Positions 7,558 through 10,406 of a stretch of 11,287 nt of DNA are shown piece by piece. Location of the stretch: the NCBI GenBank assembly GCA_030622125.1, contig JAUXGM010000074.1:1-11287 (forward strand). Reading direction: 5' to 3'. Numbering within the stretch: the stretch's first letter is position 1; the number at the start of each line of letters is the position of its first letter. Both the position numbers and the translations under genes were made by a program. This DNA comes from a bacterium (GTDB taxonomy: Bacteria > AUK180). The notes beneath the pieces were generated by a model. That model searched no databases. It saw only the letters and a list, made by a program, of their open reading frames with translations, and was not told the DNA's origin.

Positions 7558-7585
7558 CCTCTAACCTCCAACCTCTAACCTCTTC
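7558..7585. repeat. Period-7 tandem repeat, CCTCTAA, overlapping a gene's 3' end
   Basis: Units CCTCTAA (7558-7564), CCTCCAA (7565-7571) and CCTCTAA (7572-7578) are followed by a diverged CCTCTTC (7579-7585). On the minus strand this array encodes the last codons (about LEVGG) and the TAG stop of the FGE-like gene. Confidence 0.7.
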
Positions 7586-8664
7586 TTAGGTATCTCAACC
7601 TTGTATCTGAAACCGATGCCATCTGTTCGGTAAAGAGGACAAAGCCCGATAACGGGATAGTTCATCTGTTCAATTGCCGCCTTGTATGAACCCCCGATTA
7701 TATATCTATCCGCACAGGTAAATTTGGGATATTGGATCACCTTGACAACATCAGCGGTCCATTCATATATATTTCCAACAAGATCATATATCTTTTTGCC
7801 GTTATAGATGATGGGCGGATAAGAACCGACAACCGATGTGTATTTACTGCCGTCATCATTAAAACCTTTATACTTATATTTGCTATTTGAAAATCTGAGG
7901 TTCGCATCTTTAAATTTCGGCTTTTCCGTCTCATTTAATTTGATGAAATAAAATTCTTTCTTTGGAAATATATCTTTTTTAATGACTAACTTTGCCCAAT
8001 CATTTCTTGTTATTATTTCACCATCTATCCATTTGATATACGCCATAATCTCCCACCAGCTGACACCGATTACCGGAGTTCCTTTTTTATTCGATGATCT
8101 GTCGTTTTTCCAGTATGGATCATCGGAAAGGTTCCAATAGCGCGGGTTTGTCCATTGATAATCCGTATTATACTTCCAGGCAAGGGTATCAAGCGTTATT
8201 ACTTTATCTGTGATATGCCAATAGTTTTCATCGGAGTATCCGCCGATATCAACAAACTCACAAAATTGAATGTTCATTGTTTCATAACTTGAAATAAATG
8301 TAGTTGTTTTCTTTGTTTTTAAAAATTCTATCATCTCGCTTCCAAGGGCTTCCCCGTCATATACTAAAATAACCGGAGAAAAATCCCGAAGTGTGCGGTT
8401 ATTTATGATGATCTGATAATTCTTTTTTGTTTCAATCTTTCCAATATCCCCTCTGATAAAATCGTTCTCTTTTTTGTATAGATTATCATCTTTTGTATCT
8501 ATAAGATAGACCTCTAAATCGTTCTTTTCCCTATCATAAAGTTTAAAAGAAATGGTAATTGAATTCTTATGACTCTCTTTTTTTACATTATATGCTAACG
8601 GTACCTGATTTGCGTAGGAAATCATATTGAACAGAATTATGCCGATAAAAATTATTTTCTTCAT
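7561..8664 (-). CDS. Exported FGE/SUMF-domain protein
   Basis: This 367-residue protein has a Sec signal peptide (MKKIIFIGIILFNMISYA). A small beta-sandwich-like region (about 22-105) with ITISFKLYD and GDIGKIE resembles the N-terminal domain of secreted SUMF proteins in several phyla. The formylglycine-generating-enzyme (FGE-sulfatase) domain (about 120-360) shows YETMNIQFCEFVDIGGY, a TPVIGVSWWEIMAYIKW block, DLVGNIYEWTADV, RYIIGGSY and a GIGFRYKVE ending. In active FGE two cysteines sit close together near the end. Here only one is present (in GLCPLYR) and the position of the second is not cysteine, so catalysis of formylglycine formation is doubtful. A ligand-binding or structural role is more likely. 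AGAGGGG precedes the ATG, which overlaps the permease stop by 1 bp (TAATG). The extreme C-terminus is encoded by a heptamer repeat. Confidence 0.85.
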   Translation of the reverse strand: MKKIIFIGIILFNMISYANQVPLAYNVKKESHKNSITISFKLYDREKNDLEVYLIDTKDDNLYKKENDFIRGDIGKIETKKNYQIIINNRTLRDFSPVILVYDGEALGSEMIEFLKTKKTTTFISSYETMNIQFCEFVDIGGYSDENYWHITDKVITLDTLAWKYNTDYQWTNPRYWNLSDDPYWKNDRSSNKKGTPVIGVSWWEIMAYIKWIDGEIITRNDWAKLVIKKDIFPKKEFYFIKLNETEKPKFKDANLRFSNSKYKYKGFNDDGSKYTSVVGSYPPIIYNGKKIYDLVGNIYEWTADVVKVIQYPKFTCADRYIIGGSYKAAIEQMNYPVIGLCPLYRTDGIGFRYKVEIPKKRLEVGG

Positions 8665-9680
8665 TAAAATCCCCTCTGTGCAAGCGGAATTATCGGAAAT
8701 ATTATATTTAAAACAATTGCAAGTATTGGAGGAATAATTATAAATGATATAAGGTATAAAATAAATCCTTTTGTCTTTAATACCTTATAAAGCAATGGAA
8801 TGGAGGTAAAGCAAATACCTGTACCTGTAATACCGAATGCAATGCCGGCTCCAACGGGCATACCTGAATAGATGAACGGAGCAATGGATATAATATCTCC
8901 GCCATTGCAAAGATGGATCGGAATACCTACAAGTGATACCAAAAATGCCGATAAGATATTTTTTGAAAAGAACCATTTCGTATAATTTTTCGGTACTAAA
9001 AAAATTAACAGTGATGTGATCACAATCCCCAAAAATAGGTACTTTAAAAGACGATAGAAATTGTCACTGCCGCTGTTTATAGGATTTCTTGATCTTGTAT
9101 TCAGGTTTATTCCCGATCTGAATACGCTTTTCTCTTTTTTATTTTTTTTTGAAGTAAATATAATTATGATGATCGATGTCAAAAAAGCAAAGATAAAAGA
9201 AAAGATTATTCTTATAATTGTCGGATAGAGTCCAAGTATCTTTAATGATAGTATGATTATAACGGGACTGAGTATCGGAGCTGTTATTAAAAATAGAAGT
9301 TTCGATAGTTCTTCGATACTGTTTTTTGAGTTGTATCCGGTAACAAATGGAAATGCCGCACAGGAACAGATCGGAAGTATTGCAGCGGAAAGGAAAGCAA
9401 GTATTGGATTTTGTAAAAAAATTTTTTTCTTTATTAATGCAGCGATTAAGGTTGCGGTAGCAAAGATAGGAATCGTTGCCGCAGAATAATAAAAAATACC
9501 GAGAAATACCTCCTTAATAAAAATAATAAAGGAGACATCTGTCATAAAACCCTCTGCATAGATTGGACAGGTCCTACAAAACACTAAAAATGAAAGGGAA
9601 GAATCCTTGTTTATCGGAAGGAAAAAAATGATTCCAAAGAGAGCAAGTAATAGAAAAACAATCTTTTTTACGACTTTCAT
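8664..9680 (-). CDS. DUF318/ArsP-like permease with cysteine motifs
   Basis: The 338-residue membrane protein has about eight or more hydrophobic helices and matches the predicted-permease family that includes ArsP (trivalent organoarsenical efflux) and YraQ. The family hallmark appears as ILPICSCAAFPF (Cys105, Cys107), and its second half-repeat as GIPIHLCNGGDI followed by GMPVGAGIAFGITGTG. An additional CRTCP pair (Cys35, Cys38) lies just after the first helix, on a short loop. A charged, poorly conserved loop (about 180-215, KKNKKEKS) joins the two halves. It probably moves a thiol-reactive metal, metalloid or related solute across the inner membrane, but the substrate cannot be read. The ATG overlaps the rex stop as ATGA and has no clear ribosome site, so coupling to rex is likely. 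Confidence 0.8.
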   Translation of the reverse strand: MKVVKKIVFLLLALFGIIFFLPINKDSSLSFLVFCRTCPIYAEGFMTDVSFIIFIKEVFLGIFYYSAATIPIFATATLIAALIKKKIFLQNPILAFLSAAILPICSCAAFPFVTGYNSKNSIEELSKLLFLITAPILSPVIIILSLKILGLYPTIIRIIFSFIFAFLTSIIIIIFTSKKNKKEKSVFRSGINLNTRSRNPINSGSDNFYRLLKYLFLGIVITSLLIFLVPKNYTKWFFSKNILSAFLVSLVGIPIHLCNGGDIISIAPFIYSGMPVGAGIAFGITGTGICFTSIPLLYKVLKTKGFILYLISFIIIPPILAIVLNIIFPIIPLAQRGF

Positions 9681-10314
9681 ATATTACATCTATTCATACA
9701 AAATGAGATAACCTCAAGCTCTCTTGCAAGATCAATATTGCGAATATAGATATTATTTTTTCTCGCCGGTAATATTGTTGATGTAAAATTAAGGATTCCC
9801 TTAATATACTTGGAATCAAGGTTGTTTATTATCTTAATTGTTTCTGAGGTCGGTACCGTAAGGAGTGCTATCTTGATTTTATTTTTTTCGATAAAACTAT
9901 TGACCTCTTTTATGTTATATATTATTGTTTCTCCTATTTTTTTACCTATTTTTTTAGGATTAATATCAAATGCAGCAATAAAATTGAAATTTGCAGTTCT
10001 AAAACCCTGATATTTTAATAAAGCCGTTCCCAAGCTACCCACTCCTATGAGGATCACATTTTTTTTTCTATTTATACCAAGATTTTTTCTTATTTGCACA
10101 ATTAATTTATCAATATCATATCCTCTTCCTCTTACACCGAAATCACCAAAATGAGAAAAATCCCTTCTGATAACATCCGGTTTAATGCCACATAAAATTG
10201 ATATATCGGATGATCTTACCACTTTTTCCCCCTGAGATTTTGCATATTTAGGCATCGCAGATAACTTGCAAGCCGTATTACAACTATTTCCGGAATTAGT
10301 TTCTTTTCTTTCAT
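9677..10314 (-). CDS. rex: Redox-sensing transcriptional repressor Rex, interrupted by a frameshift
   Basis: Rex senses the NADH/NAD+ ratio and represses fermentation and respiration genes. The gene starts at ATG 10314, 6 nt after AGGAG. The first frame encodes MKEKKLIPEIVVIRLASYLR and continues to RGKKW, then a TAA (10218-10216). The second frame carries on the alignment: VVRSSDISILCGIKPDV, RRDFSHFGDFGVRGRGYD (winged helix), the NAD-binding VILIGVGSLGTALL, AAFDINPKKIGKKIGE, LLTVP, KGILNF and IDLARELEVISF. The break lies in a G5A5 tract (plus-strand 10223-10232). One additional base restores 212 residues, the normal length. The cause could be a sequencing error, a mutation or slippage. The second frame has an internal ATG (10255), but a protein from there would lack the first DNA-binding helix. 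It leads the rex-permease-FGE-like operon. Confidence 0.9.
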
Positions 10315-10375
10315 CGGCTTCTCCTTTTAAAGATACACTTTTTTGTTCATTTGTAAAATTTATAACATCCGTTAC

Positions 10376-10403
10376 ATTATAGCCTTTAATTTGTTAAAGT
10401 CAA
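10376..10403 (-). promoter_or_regulatory. Promoter of the rex operon
   Basis: The minus strand has TTGACT (10403-10398) and TATAAT (10381-10376) separated by 16 nt. The -10 is a perfect consensus. Transcription should start near 10369, giving a leader of about 55 nt that contains the AGGAG site (10325-10321) just before ATG 10314. The promoter begins right after the stop of the small basic gene at 10416. Confidence 0.65.
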
Positions 10404-10406
10404 ATT
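10388..10406. promoter_or_regulatory. Candidate operator, possibly an autoregulatory Rex site
   Basis: AATTTG (10388-10393), 7 nt, CAAATT (10401-10406) is a perfect 6-bp inverted repeat, 19 bp in all. It covers the -35 hexamer of the rex promoter, and its minus-strand form contains TTAACAA, the half-site of known Rex operators (TTGTTAA-N4-TTAACAA). The other half does not match that consensus and the dyad spacing differs. Assignment to Rex is therefore inference from position and half-site only. Confidence 0.35.

Follow-up and report, generated by a model that had tools for sequence, protein, structure and literature searches.

The permease gene and the exported FGE-like gene of the analysed DNA constitute a two-gene unit that is conserved across three phyla, with the same gene order, a shared strand and close spacing, while the rex gene in front of them is best read from sequence comparison as a displaced orphan that landed before the pair and is no part of the module. 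The stretch analysed here (the window; 11,287 nucleotides) is contig C57 of a MAG assigned to Ca. Mcinerneyibacteriota (G000; 2.08 Mb, 96% complete). On its minus strand, rex is followed by the permease gene with a 4-bp overlap (ATGA), and the permease gene by the FGE-like gene with a 1-bp overlap (TAATG; Table 1). The overlaps described in an earlier note on this DNA were borne out by the open reading frames, and so were its family calls: FGE-sulfatase (PF03781) scored 68.7 bits against a cut-off of 23.3, ArsP_1 (PF03773) 90.9 bits against a gathering cut-off of 32.3, and the NCBIfam Rex subfamily 186.9 bits against a cut-off of 126. The three genes had further been placed behind one promoter. 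A sigma-70-like site agreeing at 11 of 12 positions does lie upstream of rex and is the best of 18 matches in this AT-rich region, where promoter-like matches are in total at chance level and as frequent as in shuffled sequence; from the sequence, it may serve as the single promoter of all three genes. No RNA families were found in the window. At 3-1823, an exported papain-like cysteine peptidase, recognised by eye, runs off the contig end.

Table 1. Features of the rex-permease-FGE region in the window.
Feature	Position	Strand	Basis
Exported FGE-like protein, 367 aa	7561..8664	-	Pfam, alignment, models
ArsP_1/DUF318-superfamily permease, 338 aa	8664..9680	-	Pfam, NCBIfam, invariant cysteines
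Main rex frame of the assembly (192 aa), beginning within the winged helix	9677..10255	-	ORF, NCBIfam
rex start in another frame: ATG at 10314, AAAGGAG upstream, MKEKKLIPEIVVIRLASYLRCL... then stop	10216..10314	-	Comparison with orthologues
Site of the relatives' palindrome GTGAAAGT-N4-ACTTTCAC; the TTATAA core and some of the right arm survive	10351..10374	-	Motif scan
Promoter-like TTGACT-16-TATAAT before rex	10376..10403	-	Sigma-70 scan

The pair was found in four Mcinerneyibacteriota genomes (G000, G002, G005, and G006). The FGE gene overlaps the permease gene by 1 bp in G005 and lies directly behind it in G006; in G002 the two genes are on different contigs, and an FGE gene sets in at the contig end downstream of the permease, with the same 1-bp TAATG overlap. 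The nearest permeases outside this phylum are those of G142 and G279 and of family f71. In G142, representing a second phylum, 11 bp separate the permease gene from the FGE gene that follows it, and family f71, representing a third, carries the pair in seven genomes (G347, G395, G397, G398, G400, G401, and G402), with gaps of ~10 bp in four of them and E-values of 1e-74 to 1e-102 against the A6 profile. That the two genes stand back to back in three phyla suggests that the permease and the FGE-like protein work together. Searching 386 genomes with an FGE profile at E<=1e-30 returned only six pair-bearing genomes and one other, G298. Pairwise identities of the two proteins tracked each other closely (r=0.97 over 55 species pairs), as expected from co-inheritance. 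On the permease tree, the pair-bearing rows cluster by phylum, and with the rows at hand four changes account for the presence or absence of an FGE partner, where almost all shuffles need more. This agrees with an old pair that was lost several times.

Such losses are visible in the third phylum, where the FGE gene of G390 is reduced to a broken initial part and the permeases of G392 and G216 stand without one. The reverse case is G298, in which an FGE-like relative with the same cysteine pair (L139 2976-5107) occurs without an ArsP_1 permease, behind a predicted polytopic membrane protein that looks YbhN/LPG-synthase-like by eye. Neither component thus absolutely needs the other. These cases lend some weight to an alternative in which the FGE-like protein has a generic binding or adhesive role after export, its cysteines form only a disulfide, and its position behind the permease comes from an old neighbourhood inherited together and not from joint function. 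I consider this rather unlikely, as the spacing stays between a 1-bp overlap and an 11-bp gap in most loci of three phyla while the genes around the pair change from phylum to phylum.

In G001 and G004 the locus has shrunk to a single ORF of ~135 aa (L037 7439-7903 and L036 6475-6882), in which permease residues 5-75 are joined in frame to FGE residues 320-363; this open deletion scar brings together the permease CQTCP and the FGE GLCPLHR motifs. The two fused ORFs differ at six sites, with dN of 0.011 and dS of 0.037, and neighbouring genes have dS of 0.12-0.29. The resulting dN/dS of ~0.3 rests on six substitutions, too few to decide whether the remnant is a functional protein. Loci of the third phylum (L120 7308-11003, L108 7152-11273, L123 2815-3993) encode, on the same strand and behind the permease or the pair, a large exported protein that by eye resembles a C25-type peptidase. 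The loci read showed no recognisable gene for a metal-responsive regulator or another metal function next to the pair.

The earlier note had treated rex as the third member of this unit and proposed a genome search for the trio, holding that its confinement to one strain would speak against it. Part of the three-gene unit survives this search, namely the permease-FGE pair; rex does not, since it adjoins the pair only in G000, with no rex by the pair in any other genome examined, and conservation of the trio was consequently rejected. Nor is the gene intact as assembled, a point missed in the earlier note: in the frame that runs up to the permease, the beginning of the winged helix is absent. 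The start, MKEKKLIPEIVVIRLASYLRCL, matches the N-terminus of Rex in G001, G002, and G004 and is found in another frame, which opens at an ATG preceded by a strong ribosome-binding site, AAAGGAG, and stops at ~10216. Compared with rex of G001 and G002, one base is missing near position 10245, which puts the start of the DNA-binding domain out of frame. The window Rex thus shares the CoA_binding/Rossmann core and a partial winged helix with Rex repressors and differs in its frameshifted N-terminus; the Put_DNA-bind_N domain stays below the Pfam cut-off, and there is no complete winged helix in one frame. As assembled, rex is either a frameshifted gene or the site of an assembly error, and it is probably broken.

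Orthologues of this rex (54-55% identical at the protein level) head an Mrp antiporter/membrane-bound hydrogenase operon in G001, G002, and G004, with the small subunit of an energy-converting hydrogenase ~7 kb downstream on the same strand. In G001, rex overlaps mnhE by 4 bp, a junction as tight as that with the permease in the window. Just past the -10 box of the rex promoter, all three genomes carry a perfect palindrome, GTGAAAGT-N4-ACTTTCAC, which was the sole zero-mismatch match in each genome scan (G002:C162:21297-21316, G001:C47:12894-12913, and G004:C13:181301-181320; L080, L082, and L083). Its GTGAA and TTCAC elements are 10 bp apart, as against 4 bp in the canonical Rex site (PMC5355995), and on account of this spacing the Rex subfamily of these relatives may use a new, candidate operator. 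The palindrome was also tried as a regulator of the pair itself in the relatives and was rejected, as the sequence before the permease gene contained no good site in G002, G005, or G006.

G000 offers neither of these elements. The palindrome had no match in the genome at 0-2 mismatches, and what is left of it at the corresponding position of the window was either eroded or never complete; canonical Rex sites in the window were at chance level. No Mrp/hydrogenase operon headed by the orthologue of the window rex was found in G000, and no hydrogenase small subunit was detected there. The single MnhE of the genome is encoded on contig C85 behind a different, intact rex paralogue (L103 980-2208), in a cluster that resembles one on contig C64 of G001; a near-canonical Rex site (TTGTGAACACAAGCACAA, 12 of 14 positions) lies upstream of this second rex. 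C85 ends within the Mrp cluster, so the hydrogenase genes of this second cluster may be missing from the assembly only.

Three accounts of the window rex have to be weighed. The one put forward in the earlier note is a single redox-controlled export operon, in which NADH would relieve repression by Rex and all three products would be made together. Overlaps of 4 bp and 1 bp downstream of a single promoter-like site agree with it, as does the lack of an obvious Shine-Dalgarno sequence before the permease gene, which suggests coupling to rex translation. It is nevertheless very improbable: rex is frameshifted and stands beside the pair in no other genome examined, the palindrome conserved at the rex promoters of the relatives is absent, and the scan for canonical sites gave chance-level results. 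NADH-sensing or redox control of the pair is consequently left unsupported, the more so as the orthologues head a different operon. A second account, in which an error in assembly or sequencing gave rise to the frameshift and a functional Rex took the pair into its regulon in this lineage only, is better placed and still somewhat unlikely. Only one base is missing, the remainder of the gene is open and conserved, and no other window gene was seen broken; set against this, the operon under its control in the relatives was not found in G000, and the missing palindrome is evidence independent of a frameshift that might be an assembly error. The simplest account would be that the operon headed by the window-type rex was lost in the G000 lineage and that rex became joined to the permease and then began to decay, with the loss of the operator palindrome and the frameshift as its traces. 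With rex placed outside the module in this way, the case also carries a caution, in that tight overlaps alone were no proof of joint function and comparison with relatives exposed the newcomer gene.

Six cysteines of the permease (C35, C38, C105, C107, C258, and C290) are invariant in all 15 sequences. They include the CRTC and CSC motifs pointed out earlier: C35 and C38 form a CxxCP motif near the N-terminus, and C105-S-C107 is a membrane C(S/T)C motif, which all surveyed ArsP proteins carry (PMC4435449). The CxxCP loop is predicted to face outwards from the positive-inside pattern, with positive segments before TM1 and after TM2. CxxCP is absent or altered in more distant permeases (G046, G064, G267, and G270) and is hence not a feature of the whole superfamily. 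All 15 module permeases match the SO_0444 and SaoE models, which represent the nearest characterised permeases, and both family cut-offs lie far above the scores reached: the window permease obtained 58.5 bits with SO_0444 (NF033936; equivalog cut-off 300) and 64.5 bits with SaoE (NF040736; equivalog cut-off 325). No solved structure was matched by sequence.

SO_0444, a Cu/Zn efflux transporter of the same superfamily within PF03773, is needed for growth under Zn or Cu stress, with complementation listed among the evidence (PMC3219624), and in Nitratiruptor a gene of its family responded to Cd and Cu with strong induction (PMC10092412). It differs from the window permease in that it adjoins a ZntR-like regulator (PMC3219624), of which none was recognised beside the window pair, and in that no exported FGE partner is known for it. 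SaoE likewise shares the superfamily, and no other Sao proteins were recognised when the ORFs adjoining the pair were read in the loci examined, the Sao models having been run on part of the neighbours at most. ArsP exports organoarsenicals (PMC4435449) and has both PF03773 and C(S/T)C in common with the window permease; in contrast to it, the latter is not in an ars operon, and neither the CxxCP loop nor an FGE partner is described for ArsP in the literature examined. By analogy with these three relatives, export of a thiol-reactive solute is plausible.

The partner carries a signal peptide (by inspection), an Ig/FN3-like domain (~22-115), and an FGE-sulfatase domain (~123-353), which was matched in 12 of 13 members. 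Its best solved-structure matches by profile are SUMF1/FGE (E 7.6e-22), and it carries the GNxxEW and GFR motifs. AlphaFold, run twice (on 7 and 13 sequences), was confident only for the N-terminal Ig/FN3-like domain, an addition not shared with FGE/SUMF1. The positions after GGSY/GGSW, which I take to be in register with the active-site cysteines of human FGE, are occupied by A/T and M/L and not by cysteine in all members covering the region. With the catalytic positions lost, formylglycine formation is unlikely. A different pair of cysteines, C317 and C342, is invariant in all 10 FGE-like sequences covering it and recurs in G298; these two may simply form a structural disulfide. In FGE proper, the two active-site cysteines bind Cu(I) (PMC12123546).

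On this basis, I tentatively favour, with less than even confidence, a two-gene module in which the permease, followed directly by its exported FGE-fold partner and with rex outside, exports a thiophilic soft metal, metalloid, or organometal that the partner handles. The permease would move this species out of the cytoplasm via the membrane cysteines CSC, C258, and C290, and the outward CxxCP loop and the partner would bind, hand over, or otherwise handle it outside the membrane; alternatively, the partner may handle the redox state of the module cysteines there. The substrate is the weakest step. A more specific version, namely a relay that passes the metal, metalloid, or organometal from the membrane cysteines via CxxCP to a pseudo-FGE with swapped cysteines, is fairly doubtful. 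It may also be that the solute moved by the permease is a sulfur or selenium compound or a thiol instead of a metal, and that the partner, distantly related to the EgtB/SenA/OvoA domains, binds it on the outside. EgtB, SenA, PvdO, and OvoA are indeed the best sub-threshold NCBIfam matches of the FGE-like protein, the ArsP superfamily takes in TSUP carriers (PMC7176098), and one SO_0444 member has Sec in its CxC (PMC13188914). This is quite unlikely nonetheless, as the best structure matches are to FGE proper, and the DinB-type iron-binding N-terminal domain of EgtB/OvoA/SenA was not detected, with FGE-sulfatase the only domain found by Pfam.

Each protein belongs to a known superfamily; what is probably new is the linkage of the two genes, along with the permease subfamily that carries CxxCP and the FGE-like partner with its swapped cysteines, none of which was found described in the open-licence literature. 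As the search was confined to such papers, the novelty of the conserved module is probable and not proven, and searching for SaoE or DUF318 by name gave nothing directly useful. For most of the widespread DUF318/ArsP_1 permeases no substrate is known, and a conserved exported partner provides a testable handle on one subfamily. The pair also adds a probably non-catalytic role to the FGE fold, whose known members include a copper-thiolate enzyme. G000 encodes a second FGE-domain protein (G000:C119:563-1825; L076), which has an N-terminal domain of CsgG-like look and is unrelated to the pair.
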